This document shows positions 2,984-35,021 of a stretch of 38,049 nucleotides of DNA, piece by piece. The notes below the pieces were generated by a model, which was given only the letters and a program-made list of their open reading frames with translations, did no database searches and was not told the origin of the DNA. Source of the stretch: a virus; IMG/VR virus record IMGVR_UViG_3300042389_000805, positions 1-38,049 of that record, one strand, 5' to 3'. The number at the start of each line of letters is the position of its first letter. Position 1 is the first letter of the stretch. Position numbers and translations under genes: made by a program.

Positions 2984-3006
2984 TGTGTTGATTGTGAATA
3001 CTTTAC

Positions 3007-3090
3007 CTACTTTCAGAAGTTTTTGAAAAATAAAAATCAAAAATAATCGAATAAATGTTACCACTTTAATAACTAAGTACCGTATCTTTG
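3007..3090 (+). promoter_or_regulatory. Repeated promoter, copy A (upstream box, TTTCA-N8-TGAAA, TTACC-N20-TATCTTTG)
   Basis: Bacteroidota-type promoter. The -7 box TATCTTTG is at 3083-3090 and a -33-like TTACC at 3058-3062, spacing 20. Upstream, 3007-3037 is a 31-nt box identical to one at 13683-13713 and closely matched at 11870-11898. It contains the inverted repeat TTTCA-N8-TGAAA. Drives the gene at 3141. Confidence 0.8.
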
Positions 3091-3140
3091 TATCACTAAA
3101 GCGCGGTAAGCGTATAAAATCACACTTAAATAAAAATATT

Positions 3141-3560
3141 ATGACAAATTTATCTGAATTTCAACAAGCGGCTGTATTTTCGGTATTGCCAACGATACAC
3201 TGCACTATTTTTGAGCCTACCGATTCCGCTATTGAGTTAGGTTATAAGCGCGTTGTTATGCCTATTGATGAGGGTAGGGCAAAGTGGGAAGAGTATAAAA
3301 ATAACAATATTGATTGTTATTTTTACTATCACGAAGAAAGGTTTCTTTATGAAACATATAATAAGGTGGATGGTTATAGGTTTGGAATTGGATACAAAGA
3401 AGGAACTGGAACATTAGATGTCGTAACAGACGGTAAAGTTTTCATCGTGGGATATGATGCTAATAATTTGCTAATTGGGGAATATCCTAAATACGCATCG
3501 TATCAATACGACACGATAGACCAATGCTTGTGTCATGCAAAAAAAGAAGGGTACTTATAA
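3141..3560 (+). CDS. Hypothetical small protein under repeated promoter A
   Basis: 139 residues, soluble, slightly acidic, no family recognised. ATG preceded by AAATAAAAATATT. It is the only gene between promoter A and the hairpin-rich region ending in the terminator at 3829-3863, so it forms its own transcription unit. Sharing the promoter with the 12008 and 13827 units suggests co-expression with those small accessory genes, plausibly early in infection. Function unknown. Confidence 0.75.
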   Translation: MTNLSEFQQAAVFSVLPTIHCTIFEPTDSAIELGYKRVVMPIDEGRAKWEEYKNNNIDCYFYYHEERFLYETYNKVDGYRFGIGYKEGTGTLDVVTDGKVFIVGYDANNLLIGEYPKYASYQYDTIDQCLCHAKKEGYL

Positions 3561-3862
3561 TACTTTGACCCTTCGCAAGATGGGTGCGGAAAGAATGTGG
3601 AAAAAACCACAGGAGGCAGCAGGTTTGCGCGATGAAAATTACACACACCTGCCTTTATTTGGAAATACATAACCAAATATCGTAGTGCTATTTATTTAGC
3701 ACATTGTGCGTTGATAAGTTTACTTTGTGATGCTCAAGAATCCCCGATATTGAGCCGCTTACTACATTCGCTATATCAGCATGTATAGCGTCAGTGGCCA
3801 GATCTGGTAAATGGAGTGCTAGGGGATACGCGCCGATGTTTTTTTGGGCATCGGCGCGTTTT
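3561..3862 (+). ncRNA. Candidate structured non-coding RNA or long structured 3' UTR
   Basis: No ORF. Successive hairpins can be paired by eye: 3597-3600/3607-3610 (GTGG/CCAC), 3619-3624/3647-3652 (GCAGGT/ACCTGC), 3656-3662/3673-3679 (TATTTGG/CCAAATA), 3685-3690/3697-3702 (GTGCTA/TAGCAC), an alternative 3699-3702/3706-3709 (GCAC/GTGC) that excludes the previous one, 3732-3737/3750-3755 (GCTCAA/TTGAGC), 3769-3775/3784-3790 (CGCTATA/TATAGCG), the palindrome CCAGATCTGG at 3798-3807, then the terminator. The density in AT-rich DNA is suggestive. No known RNA family is recognised; it may simply be the 3' UTR of the 3141 gene. Confidence 0.4.
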
Positions 3863-3906: not shown

Positions 3907-3937
3907 TTGCACGGGTTAGCCTTAACAACTACCTTTG
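3907..3937 (+). promoter_or_regulatory. Bacteroidota-type promoter D
   Basis: TTG at 3907-3909, 20-nt spacer, -7 box TACCTTTG at 3930-3937. Located 25 bases before the ATG at 3963 and directly after a strong terminator. It lacks the upstream inverted-repeat box of promoters A-C, so this unit is probably regulated differently. Confidence 0.7.
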
Positions 3938-11177: not shown

Positions 11178-11558
11178 ATGAACAAAGCACAAAAAGAAAC
11201 ACTCAGTAAGTTTGCAAAAACAAGCGAGCCAGTACCGCTACAAACTTACATCAAGGCGCACCACATCACAAAACGCGATCTAAAACGCGCCGAAAAAATG
11301 GGCATTGCAACGGTAACGCATGGACATATATTTGTTACGGGCAAATACGCGCCGCGCAAACGACAAATAAAACCGACTGACAAAATGATGCAAGTGATTA
11401 GGCAGGTGCAAAACGGCTCTGAGTACTCAAATGAGATAGCGGAACAAATAGGCAGTACTACTGAAAAGGTGCGGAATATTTTGTATCGTGCTTTTAAGGC
11501 GGGCTTATTGCAAAGGCAGGAAAATAAAAGACGCGGCGGTATTAGGTATTTTATTTAA
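11178..11558 (+). CDS. Putative winged-helix DNA-binding protein
   Basis: 126 residues, strongly basic. Residues ~70-126 read as a winged helix: KMMQVIRQVQNGSEYSNEIA, then IGSTTEKVRNILYRAFKAGL as recognition helix and QENKRRGGIRYFI as wing. The N-terminal part (TYIKAHHITKRDLKRAEKMG) may be a second helix-turn-helix. It is the best candidate in this window for a transcription regulator and sits shortly before repeated promoter B, but that it binds those sites is only inference. Confidence 0.65.
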   Translation: MNKAQKETLSKFAKTSEPVPLQTYIKAHHITKRDLKRAEKMGIATVTHGHIFVTGKYAPRKRQIKPTDKMMQVIRQVQNGSEYSNEIAEQIGSTTEKVRNILYRAFKAGLLQRQENKRRGGIRYFI

Positions 11559-11841: not shown

Positions 11842-11869
11842 TAAGTTGTTGATAATTAGCACGTTATAA

Positions 11870-11951
11870 ACTTTCAATTGTTTTTGAAAAATAAAAATGA
11901 AAAAAAGTTTATTAAATGTTACCACTTTAATGCGAAGTGGGCGTATCTTTG
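11870..11951 (+). promoter_or_regulatory. Repeated promoter, copy B
   Basis: -7 box TATCTTTG at 11944-11951, TTACC at 11919-11923, spacing exactly 20 as in copies A and C. The upstream box at 11870-11898 keeps TTTCA-N8-TGAAA although the 8-nt centre differs from A and C, which points to selection on the half-sites. Drives the 12008-13019 gene group. Confidence 0.8.
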
Positions 11952-12007
11952 TATCATCAAAAACGCACAGCGCGGTAATTTACTCACTCACTTAAATACT
12001 TAAAATT

Positions 12008-12184
12008 ATGATTTACGCACCAAAAGTAACAGCATATCAAAAAGCACTACATATAATAAGGATTGTTAAAAACGTAGGCAAATCAATTGATTACGCAATT
12101 GATATTGTTGCGTGGTACACAATGACTGACAGCGAGCAAAAAGAGGTGGAGTGTTTAGTCTTGGCAAACTTTAACAAAGTATAA
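12008..12184 (+). CDS. Small hypothetical protein, first gene of the promoter B unit
   Basis: 58 residues, beginning MIYAPKVTAYQKALHIIRI. Leader ACTCACTCACTTAAATAC then TTAAAATTATG. No family recognised. First gene after promoter B, which argues that it is expressed despite its size. Confidence 0.65.
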   Translation: MIYAPKVTAYQKALHIIRIVKNVGKSIDYAIDIVAWYTMTDSEQKEVECLVLANFNKV

Positions 12185-12249
12185 TCCATTAACATTCCAC
12201 AAAACGCCCGCCTAAAAACGGGCAAATTTCACTCAATAAAATATAAATT

Positions 12250-12399
12250 ATGCTATACGTTAGAACCCCATTACACGGGAACGAATTTAAAGTTTGCGAC
12301 GAATTGACCGACGACGTGGTTGCTATTTTTTTTAATCAAAAAGATGCAATTGATTACGTCAACTGGAAAACAAATAAACAAGTAACTTTCACTCAATAA
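12250..12399 (+). CDS. Small hypothetical protein
   Basis: 49 residues (MLYVRTPLHGNEFKVCDELT start). Preceded by TTTCACTCAATAAAATATAA, a leader repeated almost exactly before the next gene, whose copy overlaps this gene's stop codon. Function unknown. Confidence 0.55.
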   Translation: MLYVRTPLHGNEFKVCDELTDDVVAIFFNQKDAIDYVNWKTNKQVTFTQ

Positions 12400-12409
12400 A
12401 ATATAAGCA

Positions 12410-12694
12410 ATGTCAAATACTTTGAAATTAAAAGCGCGGCACCAGGATAGCGTAATTGGCCAAATATTATCGGTAAAATCTGCTGTAAATTATCACAATG
12501 ATGTAGTATTGCCGCGCTACAAAGAAATGGACGTTTGGGAGGCAAACGAATATGAAGTATTAAACCAAAAAAATCTAACAGAACTGGAACGGCTGGAAAA
12601 TTACATCAAACACCACGAAGCACTTTTTAATGAGTTACTTTGTGAGTACGATTTAACCGTTACTACTTTTCTTGCAAAATATATAAAAAACTAA
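12410..12694 (+). CDS. Hypothetical helical protein
   Basis: 94 residues, charged and helical (LTELERLENYIKHHEALFNE), no family recognised. Third gene of the promoter B unit. Confidence 0.65.
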   Translation: MSNTLKLKARHQDSVIGQILSVKSAVNYHNDVVLPRYKEMDVWEANEYEVLNQKNLTELERLENYIKHHEALFNELLCEYDLTVTTFLAKYIKN

Positions 12695-12698
12695 AAAT

Positions 12699-13019
12699 AT
12701 GGCGCAAATAGTAAAATCTGAAACAGGTCATTGGGTAGGCAAAGAGATTTACCCAGGTGAACAATATTTTTCGCATAGTGAACATAGATACCGGCATCCG
12801 GCAATAAAAATGCTAACAGTGGATTTTGATGAAATCCAAGCAGATATTTATAAGCACCTGCAAATATCTGTTTATCCGCAAACGCCGCAATCTTTAGTAA
12901 AAAAACTGGCAATAGACCTTTGCCATGAAAGTATTGGTGTTATTTATTTGATTGACTATAAATCGCCATTTGGTGTTAGAAAAATAATCGACTTTAGCCC
13001 TAAGCAATACACTCAATAA
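12699..13019 (+). CDS. Hypothetical protein
   Basis: 106 residues, His/Tyr-rich N-terminal half with HWVGKEIYPGEQYFSHSEHR, no family recognised. Starts 4 bases after the preceding gene in the promoter B unit. Confidence 0.65.
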   Translation: MAQIVKSETGHWVGKEIYPGEQYFSHSEHRYRHPAIKMLTVDFDEIQADIYKHLQISVYPQTPQSLVKKLAIDLCHESIGVIYLIDYKSPFGVRKIIDFSPKQYTQ

Positions 13020-13611: not shown

Positions 13612-13631
13612 GTGAGATTATTTTAATTTTG

Positions 13632-13662
13632 GCCGCTCCGTTGTAAATCGGGCGGCTTTTTT
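13632..13662 (+). terminator. Intrinsic terminator with TTGTAAAT loop, copy 1
   Basis: GCCGCTCC/GGGCGGC stem around the loop GTTGTAAATC, followed by six T. From about 13638 the sequence is identical for 27 nt to the terminator at 16216-16246. Confidence 0.85.
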
Positions 13663-13682
13663 ATTGATTATCAATCGTTTAT

Positions 13683-13776
13683 CTACTTTCAGAAGTTTTT
13701 GAAAAATAAAAATGTAATTTTATGAAAAATAATTGCTTTTTTGTTACCACTTTAATAAAGTAGTACCGTATCTTTG
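13683..13776 (+). promoter_or_regulatory. Repeated promoter, copy C
   Basis: Upstream box 13683-13713 is identical to that of copy A; TTACC at 13744-13748 and TATCTTTG at 13769-13776 with the same 20-nt spacer. Between box and core this copy carries about 10 more bases than A. Drives the 13827-15620 group. Confidence 0.8.
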
Positions 13777-13826
13777 TATCATCAAAAAGCGGTAACGCAC
13801 TCACTTAATCTTAAAATATAAAAATT

Positions 13827-14078
13827 ATGATTTACTTATCAATACCATTCAGCGCAACACACCCAAGGGAAGTAGCAAAACGCACAGGAGCAAAATGGAA
13901 TCCAAATACAAAACTTTGGAGCATTGAAGCAGAAAACGAAAACGAGATTAGCCCAAAATTGCGCCCGTACATTGTTACAAGTAGCACACCAGCAGCCGCA
14001 CCAAAAACAAACCAAGTTGACCAAACCAAAGTTTTTGGCACAATGGACTGGTTAATGAGCGGCATGAATGCAGAATAA
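13827..14078 (+). CDS. DUF5710-like small protein
   Basis: 83 residues. Residues 1-38 (YLSIPFSATHPREVAKRTGA then KWNPNTKLWSI) match the pattern of DUF5710 (YLNVPFxEKDEAKxLGARWDxxxKxWYV), a short domain found in phage and mobile-element proteins, often with DNA-metabolism enzymes. The C-terminal tail is low complexity (PAAAPKTNQVDQT) ending FGTMDWLMSGM. First gene behind promoter C. Domain call from pattern, biological role unknown. Confidence 0.7.
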   Translation: MIYLSIPFSATHPREVAKRTGAKWNPNTKLWSIEAENENEISPKLRPYIVTSSTPAAAPKTNQVDQTKVFGTMDWLMSGMNAE

Positions 14079-14133
14079 TTTGCAAATTTTAATCGAACCA
14101 CAGGGAATTATTCACTTTAAAACATAAAATACA

Positions 14134-14535
14134 ATGTCAAAAGAATTATCATTACAAGTACTCGAAAACCTAAAAGTAAACTTTTCCGATTTAAAAACAT
14201 TGGCTTTTTCCGATTGGGAGCAAAGAAATGAAGTTCGTAAATTTTTGGAATATGAAGGCGAAGGCTTTAAATTGGAAGGGAATGGATTTGGGGCATATTT
14301 GGAGGATGGGGAAAATGTACACTATATCCATTTTGACAGCGACGCACCGGAATATATTTTCTTAGAAAAAAGCGTAGATTATCCGGTACTTTATAGCGGT
14401 ACTGATATTTTGGACTACAATAGGGTTTTATTCCAGTCCGAGGATGGATTTTGCGCAAACTATGACCACAGCAGGGAATTTTTCTTTGATTTTGAAAACC
14501 ACTCCGACGACTTGATCGAAGAGTGGGAGGCATAA
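14134..14535 (+). CDS. Strongly acidic hypothetical protein
   Basis: 133 residues, very rich in Asp/Glu and aromatic residues (EYEGEGFKLEGNG, HFDSDAPEYIFLE, FFFDFENHSDDLIEEWEA). No family recognised. Same length and similar charge to the 3963 product but no clear sequence match. Leader ATTCACTTTAAAACATAAAA. A DNA-mimic or inhibitor role is a hypothesis from charge only. Confidence 0.7.
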   Translation: MSKELSLQVLENLKVNFSDLKTLAFSDWEQRNEVRKFLEYEGEGFKLEGNGFGAYLEDGENVHYIHFDSDAPEYIFLEKSVDYPVLYSGTDILDYNRVLFQSEDGFCANYDHSREFFFDFENHSDDLIEEWEA

Positions 14536-14549
14536 AAACTAACGCTTAT
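14533..14549 (+). repeat. 17-nt direct repeat, copy 1
   Basis: TAAAAACTAACGCTTAT, beginning with the stop codon of the 14134 gene; exact second copy at 14857-14873 begins with the stop codon of the 14581 gene. The pair marks a duplicated intergenic junction. Confidence 0.85.
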
Positions 14550-14580
14550 TAATTCACTCACTTTTTAAAATATAAAAATT

Positions 14581-14859
14581 ATGTCAATTCAAGTAAAAAG
14601 ACACTGCATGAGGTCTTACGATTTATTGCAACAATTAAGGGACGTTTCGCCAATGCCTATGGAACTTGACGAAATGGAGCAACAAACATCGTTAGGTATT
14701 ATCAAAAAATTAAAAGCGGTTCTTGATAGTGAATATGTTAAATCTTTGCCAAGTTCAAAGGTTATAGTTTCGGGCGGCAACGACCATTATAACTGGTTTA
14801 AGTCCGACTTTAAATCGGCTGCGGCTGAAATTTATAGCGAATGCAAGGATTATCTTTAA
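14581..14859 (+). CDS. Hypothetical protein
   Basis: 92 residues, no family recognised; contains SLPSSKVIVSGGNDHYNWFK. Leader TTCACTCACTTTTTAAAATA followed by TAAAAATTATG, the repeated leader type. Flanked by the two copies of a 17-nt repeat, so the gene itself may be a cassette. Confidence 0.65.
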   Translation: MSIQVKRHCMRSYDLLQQLRDVSPMPMELDEMEQQTSLGIIKKLKAVLDSEYVKSLPSSKVIVSGGNDHYNWFKSDFKSAAAEIYSECKDYL

Positions 14860-14873
14860 AAACTAACGCTTAT
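14857..14873 (+). repeat. 17-nt direct repeat, copy 2
   Basis: Exact copy of 14533-14549, again starting at a stop codon. The two copies bracket the 14581 gene and its leader, as expected after tandem duplication or cassette insertion. Confidence 0.85.
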
Positions 14874-14876
14874 GAG

Positions 14877-14916
14877 GCACAGGCGCTCCGGTCATAAAGT
14901 TGACTGGGGTGCTTTT
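14877..14916 (+). terminator. Possible terminator with interrupted stem
   Basis: Outer pair GCAC (14877-14880)/GTGC (14909-14912) and inner CCGGTC (14888-14893)/GACTGG (14902-14907), followed by TTTT. Unpaired AGGCGCT on the left makes it imperfect; it may attenuate rather than terminate. Confidence 0.5.
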
Positions 14917-14944
14917 AAAAATCACACTTAAAGATAGACACAAA

Positions 14945-15316
14945 ATGAAATTAAATTACGACAACATTTTTATTTTTGGGATATTTTTTATCCTTATTAC
15001 CGTCTTTGTGGGCGGTTGCGGTATTGCGGTTTACGACCAATCACGTAAAGCGCAATTAAGCGCAACGGTTACAGATTTGCAGCAGCAGCAGAAAATAAGC
15101 GGCTCAGGTAGCAGCATGAAAACTGAAATACGTTATATTGTCATAACGGACAAAGAAACGTTTATTGTTGAAAATTCTATAATAAATGGAAAGTTCAATA
15201 ATTCAGATATTTTTTACAGGCTGCAAAAGGGCGCAAAGTATAACTTTACGGTATCAGGTGTTGGCAAAGGTATTTTTACTGATTACCGCAATATTTTAGA
15301 GTATTCACAGCAATGA
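14945..15316 (+). CDS. Membrane-anchored hypothetical protein
   Basis: 123 residues from the ATG at 14945 after AGACACAAA; the TTG at 14900 lies within the preceding hairpin. One N-terminal membrane segment (IFIFGIFFILITVFVGGCGI), then a likely outward-facing beta domain with LQKGAKYNFTVSGVGKGIFT, a pattern seen in small phage/prophage membrane proteins of unknown function. Stop overlaps the next ATG. Confidence 0.7.
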   Translation: MKLNYDNIFIFGIFFILITVFVGGCGIAVYDQSRKAQLSATVTDLQQQQKISGSGSSMKTEIRYIVITDKETFIVENSIINGKFNNSDIFYRLQKGAKYNFTVSGVGKGIFTDYRNILEYSQQ

Positions 15317-15441
15317 AAATAAAAACGCCCGACAAATACACAATTTTAACCCTAATCTTTGGCCTAATTGCCGGATTTGGATTAATGGCAATTGGAATTG
15401 CAATAACTAAAATATTTCAATTATGGATTTATCAAAACTAG
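15313..15441 (+). CDS. Small single-span membrane protein
   Basis: 42 residues; central hydrophobic run TILTLIFGLIAGFGLMAIGI. Overlaps the preceding gene by 4 bases and the following one by 19, so its reality rests on tight packing and hydrophobic pattern. Confidence 0.5.
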   Translation: MKIKTPDKYTILTLIFGLIAGFGLMAIGIAITKIFQLWIYQN

Positions 15442-15620
15442 AATTAGGTGAATACTACCGCATAAACGGCACAAAAAAGATTTTATATTGGGACGGCGAA
15501 AAATGGCTAAAACCACAAAAAGATAGCCGTAAAAATTACGGCACATATAACAGCCATTTAGAAAAACAGCCTACTAACATAAAGTCGGTTGAGTTGGTGG
15601 ATATTCGCACCGTTTCTTAA
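15423..15620 (+). CDS. Hypothetical protein
   Basis: 65 residues, basic, beta-like (LGEYYRINGTKKILYWDGEK), no family recognised. Last gene of the promoter C unit; followed by the long non-coding region. Confidence 0.6.
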   Translation: MDLSKLELGEYYRINGTKKILYWDGEKWLKPQKDSRKNYGTYNSHLEKQPTNIKSVELVDIRTVS

Positions 15621-16080: not shown

Positions 16081-16215
16081 GAAACAAAGAAACACGTATA
16101 AAGAATTGCATTGCTTAAAAAACCTTAGATGTAAATTTAAGGTTTTTACCAGTGCCTTGTATCAATCAAAAAAAGATGTGAGTTTATAAAATATGGTTTT
16201 TCAATTTTTAACTTT

Positions 16216-16246
16216 GCCGCCCCGTTGTAAATCGGGCGGCTTTTTT
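16216..16246 (+). terminator. Intrinsic terminator with TTGTAAAT loop, copy 2
   Basis: GCCGCCCCG (16216-16224), loop TTGTAAAT, CGGGCGGC (16233-16240), six T. Near-duplicate of 13632-13662. It closes the non-coding region before promoter F. Confidence 0.9.
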
Positions 16247-16286
16247 ATACCAAAATTTAGGCAATTACACAAAAAATATCAATCAG

Positions 16287-19349: not shown

Positions 19350-21083
19350 TTGACGAGTGCAAAAGACAAAGTAAAACGGTATATTGATTTCTGCCTAAAC
19401 CCCGAAAGCGTTGTTTCGTCGTGGGTAGTCAAGGCGGTTAAGATGCACCTTTCTGATTTGGAAAAGGTCAAAGATAAATCGTTCCCGTTTTACTTTGACG
19501 AAGATGCGGCCATGCACCCGATAACCCTTTTTGATAATTTGCAATTTGCAAAGGGTAGTAAGGAGTTTTTTAATTTGCTTGACTGGCAAACAATGGTAAT
19601 GTGGTGCGCTTATGGATGGAAAAGAAAATCACACAATATTAAGGGCGAGTGGATAATTGATAAAAAAAACGACTTTCGTAGATACAAGCAGATTTACATA
19701 AAAGTTGCCCGTAAAAATGGTAAAACCGAATGGATGGCGGGTATAGGTTTGTACGGTCAATTCTTTGACCCACACACCGAGGATGCAGAAATATATTGGT
19801 TCGCAACCAAAAAAGAACAGGCCGCAAAAGGCTTTGACAGGCAAAAGGAAATGACAACGCGACTGGCCGCACATAGTCCGGCTTTTGCTTTAATGGCGCG
19901 GGTGATGCAATACCGCATCGTTAGCCGTTCGGGTAGTTCATTTACCACATATTTAGGGCAAGACAGCAAGGGCGAGGATGGAGCATACCCGTTTTATGGC
20001 CTATGTGATGAGTACCACGCCCACAAAACAAACGGAATGCTAAACGTTGTTGAATCGGGCATGGTAAGCCGCCATAGCCCGATGACTTGGATAATAACAA
20101 CGGCGGGAGATAACCCAGACAGCCCGTGCGCTCAGTTTGAAAAGTTTTGTAAACAGGGATTGGATGAGGTTGTGTCATTGGGCGGCACACTACCCTTTAT
20201 TTTTGATTTGGATGAGGGGGATGATTGGGAGGATGAAAAGATGTGGCAAAAGCCAAACCCGTCACTAGGCCAAACGGTAATAATTGAAAATTTACGGGAC
20301 GACTACCAGCGCGCAATATCGCAGGGTATATCCTTTAAAAACAACTTTCTAAGGAAAAATTTAAATGTATGGTTGCGGGCGCATAGTGAATGGCTAGCAG
20401 CCGACGTGTGGAAAGCAAACACCGAAGGCGCAACCGTTGAGCAGTTGCGCGAAAGTTTAAAAGGCCGTACGTGTTTTGGTGGCTTAGACTTGGCGTTAGT
20501 GTCTGACCTTTCATCTATTGTATTGATTTTTCCGCCTGAAAAAGAGGGCGAACGAATTAAATTATTATCTTGGTCTTTTTGCCCCGAAGATACAGCGTAC
20601 AAAAGAGCGGAATTAGATGCCGTTCCTTATATCGAATGGGCGGAAAGCGGCTATATGATGCTAACGCCTGGCAATGTAACAGACTTTAGTTTTATCAAAA
20701 AAAAGATACTCGAACTATCCGAAACATACGCCATTCACAGCATAGGTTACGACCCGTATAAGTCCACGCAATTGGTCACGGACTTGATTGAGGAAGGCGT
20801 ACAAATGGAATCATTCGCACAAAAGCCCGCCATAATGTCCCCCGCCGTTAATGAGTTTGAAAGATTGGCATTATCAAGGTCTTTTGAACATGGCGACGAT
20901 CCAATTTTAAAATGGTGTATATCTAACGCGCAGGTCGTTAAGTCCGCACAGGATAACGCCCGATTAGACAAAGGGGCAAGTTCTGAAAAGATCGACGCAG
21001 CGGTCGCGGCTGTTATGGCTGGCGGTCAATGGGCGGAACACCGGGACAATACGGGCAACGATGTTTTATTTGCAATTTTATAA
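19350..21083 (+). CDS. terL: Terminase large subunit
   Basis: 577 residues from TTG at 19350; no ATG is available upstream of conserved sequence, and the start adjoins the terS relic. ATPase: Walker A VARKNGKT (119-126), Walker B YGLCDEYH (216-223), coupling motif TTAGDN (250-255). Nuclease: GGLDLALVSD (377-386) with Asp380, a central GYDPYKS, and KIDAAVAAVMAGG near the end with the last acidic residue. Terminase_1 type, paired with P27 TerS. It packages DNA into the prohead and cuts it. Confident; start codon less so. Confidence 0.95.
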   Translation: MTSAKDKVKRYIDFCLNPESVVSSWVVKAVKMHLSDLEKVKDKSFPFYFDEDAAMHPITLFDNLQFAKGSKEFFNLLDWQTMVMWCAYGWKRKSHNIKGEWIIDKKNDFRRYKQIYIKVARKNGKTEWMAGIGLYGQFFDPHTEDAEIYWFATKKEQAAKGFDRQKEMTTRLAAHSPAFALMARVMQYRIVSRSGSSFTTYLGQDSKGEDGAYPFYGLCDEYHAHKTNGMLNVVESGMVSRHSPMTWIITTAGDNPDSPCAQFEKFCKQGLDEVVSLGGTLPFIFDLDEGDDWEDEKMWQKPNPSLGQTVIIENLRDDYQRAISQGISFKNNFLRKNLNVWLRAHSEWLAADVWKANTEGATVEQLRESLKGRTCFGGLDLALVSDLSSIVLIFPPEKEGERIKLLSWSFCPEDTAYKRAELDAVPYIEWAESGYMMLTPGNVTDFSFIKKKILELSETYAIHSIGYDPYKSTQLVTDLIEEGVQMESFAQKPAIMSPAVNEFERLALSRSFEHGDDPILKWCISNAQVVKSAQDNARLDKGASSEKIDAAVAAVMAGGQWAEHRDNTGNDVLFAIL

Positions 21084-32442: not shown

Positions 32443-35021
32443 TGGCTAAACGATTCTCAAGTACGTTCTATTCAGCAAAAAGCGTTTTATACGTTGTTGA
32501 AATTTGGGACTCTGCTTACAGCGGAACGGTAACGCCATTTACTATTTCAGGAAATAACTTTCAGTTACAGCAATCTGGGTCAGGCGACAAAATATTAAAC
32601 CATATGTCTCCCACAAGTTGCCAATTTGATTTCTTTATACAAAACACGACGCACGAAGGCTTGATTACTGATTTGATAGACGCAACAGAAGGGCGTTTTA
32701 CGGTTGCAATATTCCAGTCAACAACCACAAATTTGTATTGGGCAGGGCAAATTGTAGCAGACATTGGGAGTATAGAGGAGGCGTATTATCCGTATGCGTT
32801 CACTATTAGAGCGACGGACGGACTCGGTTTGTTGAAAACGGTAGATTACAAAGACACGGGCGGCGCGTACACAGGCAAAGACAGGAGTATTGATATTATA
32901 AAAAGGTGCATAAAAAAACTACCTTATGTAGCGGTTCACTATACAAGTTCAAGCCCGTTTATATCTACCATATTGGATATTTGGGCGGCAGGTATGACAA
33001 ACATAGGAACCGGAACGTGTGCATTATACCAGTCTTACATTGATAATTCAGTTTGGCAGACATATGAAAAAGGCGTAGAAAAGTACACTAATTGCTACGA
33101 TGTTATTGAGCATATACTAAAGCCGTTTATTGCACGTATAACCCAAAGAAACGGCCAGTTTTTAATTGAAAATATATTTTATCGTACTGAATCAATAGTA
33201 ATACAACGCAAGTATTCACGAGATGGCGGGCTTTTAGATACGGGTAACTTTTTTGGCACAAACACCATAAACCAAACAGCAAACGGCGCGTTGTTGGCAG
33301 GGGCGCAATATGAATTTTTTCCAGGACTATTAGAGGCGCACCACACATACAAGTCAAACACGCGGCGCAACTTTTTAGAAAGCGCGGCGGCGTTAAATGA
33401 CACAAGCACCCTGTTAGACATAAAAAAGCCGATCAATGCAAACGGAGGCAGTTCTACTTTAAGGCTAACGGGTAATGTTGTACTTTCTTTGCAGTCTTTA
33501 GACCCTGATATAACTTTCGGTTCACCATTTGAGCCGTTTTGTATAATCTTTAGAATAAATCTGTTTTTGGACACGGTTGGCTTATCGCGACCTTATACCG
33601 TGTTGCCAACCTTTCAAGTAAATTACGGAGCGACCGAGTGGGCGGCTTCGCCTGGGTTTTATATTGCGCTCCGTATTGATAATGCGGCGTTTTTAGTAAA
33701 CACAACAAGCGACGTTTTTACCTTTACGCAAGGCGTTGACGTGATGACCCCGGTAATGCCCGAATCATGCGAAGATTTTAGTATTTCTTTCAATGTTGAA
33801 TCAATTCAAAAATACAGCGGCGGAACTTACAACTTAGCAGATTTTGAAATAGGCTTTCAGTTAAACAACCAATGGCTCGAGGTGTACAGTTATGGCAATC
33901 CTGCAATAACAGAAGATGAGGTTGAGTATGAGACAATAAATACTACCAATACCACCAATACGGCAAAATTAGAGCAAGATAGCATAATTGGTACGTCGTC
34001 AGACCCTAACAGTTTGGGGGCATTATGGATAAAGCCCGCATCTACATTTACACTTGCAAACGTTTGGCAAACAGGCATAGCAACGCCAAACACACTGCTT
34101 GAGCAACTTGTTACAAAAATAGCAATGTCGGGACAATACGCACCGACTAAAAGGTTAAACGGGGTTTTATATGGAACAATAGACAAGTTAAATAGGGTTT
34201 TATGGGAGGGCGAGTATTACCTGTTTTTGGGCGGCACGTGGAATGCAGACATGGACGAACTAACAGGCGATTGGGTTTTATTGCGCTATGATGTGAACTT
34301 TACGCCTTCGCCACCGATCAAAAAGATAAAGAAGGGCCCAGATCCGCCAACACACCCGCCATCAAACGGATTAGGGGGCGCAAGTTATGAAATGGTAGCA
34401 AAACCTCCCGCAACTTTGCTCTATCCGGTTGCGGCAACTACGAGCGCGGTCGCTCTTTTGTCGGGCGCAATTACAACGCTACCAATCAGCGGAACGGCAA
34501 CGGACGGAGATTTTTACATAGGTGACACGGTTACAATTGTAAACCCATTAACGGGCGAATTTACAAACTTAACAGTAACAGCCAACAGCGTCGCGGGTGA
34601 CACATCGGTAGCGGTTAGCGGTACTTTGAGTGGTCAATATCCAGCAAATGCCCCGATCATTAAAAAGCCAAAAATAGGCGGGTCGGATTTGCCGCCGTTA
34701 GGTAGCGCGTTACAGGTTTTGCAGGTAAATGCGGCGGGAACAGGCTTGCAGTATTACAGCCAAAGCCAACAGGTCACAACGGGCGTAAATTACACCTTTG
34801 CCTTACCTGCCAAAAGGTGGGCGGTTGCGGTATCAATCGAAAGCGCGGCGCAAACTATCACAATAGGCAAAACGAGCGGCGCGGGCGATTATAGCACATT
34901 GGACGTAGTAAGCGGCGAACCTAACACGGTCACGCTTTTTGTTTATGGCGGCGCAAGCGGAACGAATATATTTTTTGCTGGAATTTCAGTAAGCACAATT
35001 ATCACGATTTTAACAGTATGA
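32442..35021 (+). CDS. Large tail protein (distal tail/baseplate hub candidate)
   Basis: 859 residues, directly after the tape measure where siphoviruses encode the distal tail and hub. The first ~210 residues (SPTSCQFDFFIQNTTHEGLI, IVADIGSIEEAYYPYAFTIR, DGLGLLKTVDYKDTG) follow the pattern of tail-tip proteins of Bacteroidota phages. The middle is beta-rich; a Pro-rich linker (PDPPTHPPSNG) leads to a C-terminal beta domain that may bind sugars or hold the fibre. Precise homology to gp27-type hubs is not visible. Overlaps the fibre gene by 4 bases. Confidence 0.75.
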   Translation: MAKRFSSTFYSAKSVLYVVEIWDSAYSGTVTPFTISGNNFQLQQSGSGDKILNHMSPTSCQFDFFIQNTTHEGLITDLIDATEGRFTVAIFQSTTTNLYWAGQIVADIGSIEEAYYPYAFTIRATDGLGLLKTVDYKDTGGAYTGKDRSIDIIKRCIKKLPYVAVHYTSSSPFISTILDIWAAGMTNIGTGTCALYQSYIDNSVWQTYEKGVEKYTNCYDVIEHILKPFIARITQRNGQFLIENIFYRTESIVIQRKYSRDGGLLDTGNFFGTNTINQTANGALLAGAQYEFFPGLLEAHHTYKSNTRRNFLESAAALNDTSTLLDIKKPINANGGSSTLRLTGNVVLSLQSLDPDITFGSPFEPFCIIFRINLFLDTVGLSRPYTVLPTFQVNYGATEWAASPGFYIALRIDNAAFLVNTTSDVFTFTQGVDVMTPVMPESCEDFSISFNVESIQKYSGGTYNLADFEIGFQLNNQWLEVYSYGNPAITEDEVEYETINTTNTTNTAKLEQDSIIGTSSDPNSLGALWIKPASTFTLANVWQTGIATPNTLLEQLVTKIAMSGQYAPTKRLNGVLYGTIDKLNRVLWEGEYYLFLGGTWNADMDELTGDWVLLRYDVNFTPSPPIKKIKKGPDPPTHPPSNGLGGASYEMVAKPPATLLYPVAATTSAVALLSGAITTLPISGTATDGDFYIGDTVTIVNPLTGEFTNLTVTANSVAGDTSVAVSGTLSGQYPANAPIIKKPKIGGSDLPPLGSALQVLQVNAAGTGLQYYSQSQQVTTGVNYTFALPAKRWAVAVSIESAAQTITIGKTSGAGDYSTLDVVSGEPNTVTLFVYGGASGTNIFFAGISVSTIITILTV

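Follow-up and report, generated by a model that had tools for sequence, protein, structure and literature searches.

Why should a phage carry nearly the same non-coding sequence before three separate groups of small genes, and what does that sequence do? The question arises from a 38,049-base IMG/VR virus record, IMGVR_UViG_3300042389_000805 (G000; "the window" is this whole stretch of DNA), in which genes for structural proteins, terminase, portal, RecT and a YqaJ exonuclease can be recognised and whose first 25 kb gave no megablast match among named phages. The original prediction had placed three related sites at 3007-3090, 11870-11951 and 13683-13776, and all three are present, read as quoted and are homologous. 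Used as a query within the window, the third (copy C) recovers copy A with E = 9e-27 and copy B with E = 3e-18, so their likeness is not a matter of chance. The homology spans about 150 bp, the predicted promoter itself roughly 120 bases, and a direct-repeat search of the window recovers the same repeat families. The features are listed in Table 1.

Table 1. Features of the three promoter modules of the window and of their surroundings.
Feature	Position	Strand	Remark
Copy A, putative IHF-like box	2993..3005	+	degenerate (TGTGAATACTTTA) where other copies match WATCAANNNNTTR
Copy A, inverted repeat	3011..3028	+	TTTCA-GAAGTTTT-TGAAA; predicted -84 to -67
Copy A, TTACC	3058..3062	+	-33 position
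Copy A, -7 element	3083..3090	+	TATCTTTG; predicted start A3095 (rule from PMC6847099)
Copy A, leader hairpin	3101..3113	+	GCGC-GGTAA-GCGT
Copy A, cargo gene	3141..3560	+	139 aa; no family above cut-off
Terminator-like hairpin 3' of copy A cargo	3828..3859	+	strong
Candidate regulator	11178..11558	+	winged-helix/MarR-like; directly 5' of copy B in three phages
Copy B, putative IHF-like box	11854..11866	+	degenerate (AATTAGCACGTTA)
Copy B, inverted repeat	11872..11889	+	TTTCA-ATTGTTTT-TGAAA
Copy B, TTACC	11919..11923	+	-33 position
Copy B, -7 element	11944..11951	+	TATCTTTG; predicted start A11956 (rule from PMC6847099)
Copy B, leader hairpin	11964..11972	+	CGC-ACA-GCG; Vienna favours an overlapping register
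Copy B, cargo genes	12008..13019	+	ORFs 12008-12184, 12250-12399, 12410-12694, 12699-13019; no family above cut-off
Terminator-like hairpin and T run	13638..13660	+	directly 5' of copy C
Copy C, putative IHF-like box	13669..13681	+	TATCAATCGTTTA, exact WATCAANNNNTTR
Copy C, inverted repeat	13687..13704	+	TTTCA-GAAGTTTT-TGAAA; 57 bp before TTACC
Copy C, TTACC	13744..13748	+	-33 position
Copy C, -7 element	13769..13776	+	TATCTTTG; predicted start A13781; core holds fusion point of two ancestral promoters
Copy C, leader hairpin	13789..13798	+	GCG-GTAA-CGC
Copy C, cargo group	13827..15620	+	DUF5710 in first gene

Pattern scans of viral contigs, relatives of the window's proteins and whole-record searches brought together five further IMG/VR phage records that carry the module, with 16 copies besides the window's three: 3300046776_000001 (G001, 64.9 kb), 3300034013_000646 (G002, 51 kb), 3300044643_002102 (G003, 11 kb), 3300033992_000828 (G007) and 3300047095_000568 (G008). 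G001 closes on itself, its first and last bases matching window positions 14751 and 14753, and about 20 kb of it are absent from the window, which is therefore a fragment; the full phage probably carries additional copies. Neighbouring genes and sequence together distinguish eight module positions, namely A (G000, G001), B and C (each in G000-G003), D, E and I (G001), F (G002, G007, G008) and H (G001-G003).

The core TTACC-N20-TATCTTTG is as predicted in copies A, B and C, and it has much in common with the housekeeping promoters of Bacteroidetes. In F. johnsoniae the -7 element spans T-12 to G-5 with the consensus TAHHTTTG, and conservation of the -33 element is weak (PMC6847099). The module shares the -7 element and the spacing with these promoters (TTTG / TANNTTTG), but departs from them in having TTACC in place of TTG or TTTG, in every copy, and in carrying an upstream dyad (PMC6847099). 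The -7 box is TATCTTTG throughout, with TACCTTTG in E, and thus matches TANNTTTG (TAHHTTTG), a pattern that is enriched in the window (78 versus 55 +/- 7) and fits the F. johnsoniae consensus. When the F. johnsoniae rule is applied, the predicted starts given in Table 1 place TTACC at -37 to -33 and the centre of the upstream repeat at about -75.5 in A and B and about -85.5 in C, with an A/T-rich stretch between repeat and core at about -57 to -38. On the 5' side of the repeat, C, D, E and F have a box matching WATCAANNNNTTR, degenerate in A and B, which may be an IHF-like site.

The repeat itself, TTTCA-N8-TGAAA, is close to chance as a bare motif. Four exact matches occur in the window (at 3011, 11872, 13687 and, inside a gene, 17915), and eight when up to one mismatch is allowed, against 3.8 expected, a number that 4 of 100 shuffles reached; it is therefore not counted alone, and what makes it significant is that it keeps a fixed position within a conserved module. 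It is intact in 17 copies, which represent seven of the eight positions and six phage records, the copies where it is not seen being position I and the G003 copy of B, which the end of the contig truncates. In all 17 repeat-bearing copies TTTCA begins either 47 bp (A, B, D, E) or 57 bp (C, F, H) before TTACC, so that 10 extra bp separate repeat and core in copy C compared with A and B; the difference is about one helical turn, though the copies share ancestry and are no independent tests, and the 57-bp class possibly goes back to one 10-bp insertion. The centre varies, with GAAGTTTT, ATTGTTTT, ATTATTTC, TTATTTTC, ATATTTTC, GAAATAAT and GAAGTTAT found among the copies, and within the window copy B has ATTGTTTT where A and C have GAAGTTTT while both half-sites are retained, exactly as had been noticed beforehand. 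Counted by column, the half-sites are invariant at 10 of 10 positions and the centre at one of eight, figures that overstate independence, since the copies are co-descended and the repeats were found by their own pattern, which partly builds in the invariance. Type H is the best single test of half-site retention that the alignment offers: it keeps both half-sites at the 57-bp distance, while over 43 flanking columns its identity to the other types is 35-42%. Half-sites retained around a variable centre among relatives bear out the proposal of a dimeric-regulator-type site, and a dimeric regulator probably binds TTTCA-N8-TGAAA.

It had also been foreseen that relatives keeping the core and losing the repeat would count against a regulon marked by the repeat. 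This is seen once, at position I (G001:29411), a paralogous case and a minority of one in eight positions. With this core lacking a repeat, the statement that the motif defines a regulon is too strong, while its other part, a compound promoter common to several transcription units, stands. A canonical promoter, TTG-N20-TACCTTTG at 3907-3937, before the RecT/exonuclease operon, does without the repeat.

What the modules precede is less constant than the modules themselves, as orthologous promoters lead into non-homologous first genes in different phages. Position B has three different first genes in four phages, position F three in three, position A two in two and position H two in three, and at position C three relatives share one first gene and the window has another. 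On this comparison the promoters are joints for gene exchange, and homologous recombination would be the route. The window's copy C preserves such an event: its 5' part and core (117 bp) are 100% identical to the C copy of G002, and its leader and gene start (70 bp) are 100% identical to the H copy of G002, which lies 643 bp downstream of C in that phage, whereas the identity between C and H is 71% over the first of these stretches and 76% over the second. Copy C of the window is, by this alignment, a fusion of two promoters. The pair of promoters, C and H, is present in each of G001, G002 and G003. The simplest reading is that recombination between adjacent copies removed the C cargo in the window's lineage; alternatively, the cargo may have been gained in the lineages of those three. 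Copy A of the window looks similar: its leader is like the one at a second promoter, which G001 has a further 659 bp along.

We consider it probable that the module is a host-polymerase promoter with the site of a dimeric regulator, itself probably an activator, that is reused before interchangeable cassettes, and that its copies are exchange joints. Each copy would be a promoter-leader cassette for the main RNA polymerase holoenzyme of the host, of the Bacteroidetes sigma-ABfr type, composed of a good -7 box (TATCTTTG), a poor -33 box (TTACC), an A/T-rich stretch and the 18-bp inverted repeat. A symmetric dimeric protein, sitting on the repeat on a fixed face of the helix, would activate the weak core (or restrain it), and by the shared site dispersed gene groups would be switched together, perhaps early in infection as originally suggested. 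The transcript would open with a small hairpin followed by the start-associated stretch CACTCACTT. The near-identity of the copies, together with the phage's own RecT and exonuclease, may let them act as joints for homologous exchange, in which the promoter stays while the genes that follow it are replaced, lost or newly acquired.

Several other explanations have to be weighed against this one. The upstream block could be an extended UP-like or bent A-tract element that serves the alpha subunits and HU/IHF, with the dyad a by-product and the promoters strong and constitutive; the block is indeed A/T-rich, C, D, E and F have the IHF-like box, relatives encode an HU/IHF-type protein, and one copy without the dyad works or at least persists. 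Type H, however, lost the AATAAAAA tract and kept both half-sites at the same spacing, the half-sites hold an invariant C and G that would be superfluous in an A-tract, and the repeat, at -84 to -67 or further out, is upstream of where UP elements usually sit. We think this explanation unlikely. No greater credit is given to the idea that the repeat is not an activator site but the operator of a repressor silencing the cassettes, either late in infection or in a prophage state: a place well upstream of the core is a less easy one for repressors, the poor -33 box suggests a need for activation, and no integrase or lysogeny repressor is found among the matches listed for G001 (72 ORFs; 25 of 33 PHROGs), whose life style is likely virulent. 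Dispersed identical sites before many genes would nevertheless suit the shut-off of early genes, with stoperators as a precedent in the prophage state, and wHTH, HTH_39 and XRE-like proteins are indeed found among the products of these phages; a wHTH protein is believed to switch off the early genes of SIRV2, where silencing late in infection has been proposed for Aca8 (PMC11065993).

Hardest to believe is that the copies are alike merely as recent duplications kept alike by recombination, the repeat having no regulatory role. Copy C is a clear fusion, leaders shuffle between positions and recombination genes are present, all of which such duplication would explain, but change has touched the N8 centre, the spacer between -33 and -7 and the flanks and has spared the half-sites, TTACC and the -7 box, and type H speaks for selection acting on the half-sites.

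If the favoured reading of a regulator-dependent promoter holds, the repeat is a clear target for finding its regulator. The winged-helix protein at 11178, put forward in the original prediction, is one of several candidates: it has weak wHTH/MarR-like similarity and a predicted structure of low confidence (pLDDT 52, pTM 0.29), and it occurs in G000, G001 and G002 and is absent from the three other contigs, which are fragments. The HTH_39 and XRE-like proteins, encoded by G001, G002 and G007 in an arm missing from the window, or a host protein, are further candidates. An HU/IHF-type protein is encoded by G001 (32837-33169; L095:12837-13169), G002, G007 and G008, about 90% identical among these relatives, and had no match in the window; the assignment of the HTH_39 and HU matches to given G001 ORFs, and the label XRE-like, were made by reading the sequences.

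The leader tells a different story from the promoter. GCGGTAA and CACTCACTT had been counted as part of the promoter, and their likeness as a mark of the regulon, neither of which we can uphold: both elements also occur away from the promoter, with CACTCA at the internal gene starts 12230, 12390 and 14555 and a leader with the hairpin following a canonical promoter at G001:13351. The leader consists of a small 5' hairpin (3-4 bp, G/C, at about +7 to +20 of the predicted transcript) and then the start-associated motif CACTCACTT, 20-29 nt ahead of the start codon. Three sequences, GCG-GUAA-CGC, CGC-GGUAA-GCG and ACGC-ACA-GCGU, give one hairpin shape, and the argument for the hairpin is that differing sequences form the same shape, the single shuffling tests being modest (fractions 0.02-0.2, some inputs having begun 3 nt before the predicted start). 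GGTAA (at about +11) was considered as a second operator paired with TTACC and set aside as less likely, since a GGTAA-less leader still forms the hairpin; that it does so from another sequence points to an RNA-level element. More widely, CACTCA(CTTAAA) stands 20-29 nt before the starts of small genes that have no such promoter, at 12230, 12390, 13010 and 14555 in the window and likewise at 1362, 3473, 20147 and 20572 in G001, often with a G/C hairpin such as ACGCCCGCCTAAAAACGGGC on its 5' side. The upstream part of the RecT-operon promoter (3907-3937) is common to a second G001 promoter with a hairpin leader (G001 13374, 11988), and promoter halves and leaders have thus been recombined outside the dyad-bearing modules too.

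As to the genes behind the modules, they are small, as predicted, and nearly all lack family matches. The exceptions are DUF5710 at 13827 in the window, a sub-threshold DUF1015 match in the cargo of G003 and an N6/N4 DNA methyltransferase encoded by the fourth gene after module I of G001. PADLOC, applied to 72 G001 proteins, gave 56 families, of which the 25 listed are all methyltransferases. By analogy with archaeal viruses it is reasonable to guess at a counter-defence role, and the swappable cargo genes are good candidates for host-takeover or counter-defence functions. We can go one step further and imagine a portable, regulator-responsive promoter dock, at which a dimer of phage or host origin fires exchangeable counter-defence cassettes jointly and whose sequence is the homology by which Bacteroidetes phages trade them, although as a whole this is a speculative and rather improbable picture.

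The design has relatives among known systems. Promoter early stem-loops (PeSLs) of T4-type phages are reportedly the subject of Arbiol et al. 2010 and Comeau et al. 2014, as cited in PMC4503421. PeSLs resemble the present module as repeated promoter units between small accessory genes that are shuffled among related phages. They also lie next to terminators; here terminator-like hairpins stand before copy C and after cargo A, apparently without being fixed in every copy. The module differs from PeSLs in its Bacteroidetes TAnnTTTG recognition, its upstream dyad at fixed spacing and its leader hairpin with start motif, and the phages do not belong to the T4 type, having no T4-like genes and no T4 early promoter. 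Archaeal viruses have a conserved early regulatory sequence before anti-defence genes, with inverted repeats in some (PMC11065993). Like the SIRV2 sequence, the module is one regulatory sequence placed before several small, unrelated and variable genes, but SIRV2 has an archaeal TATA/BRE core, and timing and anti-defence function have been demonstrated there for some genes (PMC11065993). By its promoter the module belongs to neither the PeSL nor the SIRV2 type; in how it works as a whole it is comparable to the PeSL cassettes. In cluster K mycobacteriophages, a start-associated sequence (SAS) precedes the start codons of some small genes, and about half of these have an inverted repeat (ESAS) upstream (PMC3203893). 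The present leaders are similar in having a start-associated motif, CACTCACTT, before small genes; unlike ESAS, which is 17 bp long and lies just 5' of SAS, the dyad described here lies upstream of the promoter, and the sequences are unrelated (PMC3203893).

For most small phage genes no family can be recognised, and a constant promoter with exchanged cargo hints at which of them act together. To our knowledge, few anti-defence genes are known for phages of Bacteroidetes. If the dock picture were true, the module could be used as bait for new ones, and in archaeal viruses the same bait logic yielded new anti-CRISPR and anti-toxin genes (PMC11065993).

The module was also sought outside the viral records. 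The core pattern gave 52 matches in 84,980 species genomes, none with the repeat or the surrounding module, and these were set aside as chance; the module as a DNA query found just short A/T-rich matches, likewise judged chance, in 395 Bacteroidia genomes. The best match of TerL in the same 395 genomes has 34% identity, and no host is therefore assigned. An Rfam search gave no match, and no terminator was found directly 5' of copy A or copy B. A perfect 7-bp hairpin, CCACTTTAATGCGAAGTGG, lies between TTACC and the -7 box of copy B (11922-11940); in copies A and C it is weak. The terminator-like stretch before copy C (13620-13664) recurs at 16204-16248 before an HNH endonuclease gene (89% over 45 nt), so that ORF 16193 probably begins further downstream than its apparent start. 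Finally, the large terminase of the window (19350-21083) is 98-99% identical in four contigs (G003, L073, L074, L075), whereas G001, about 90% identical to the window over the recombination region, has no DNA match at the window's terminase and carries other terminase families, so that packaging and structural modules have been exchanged wholesale.
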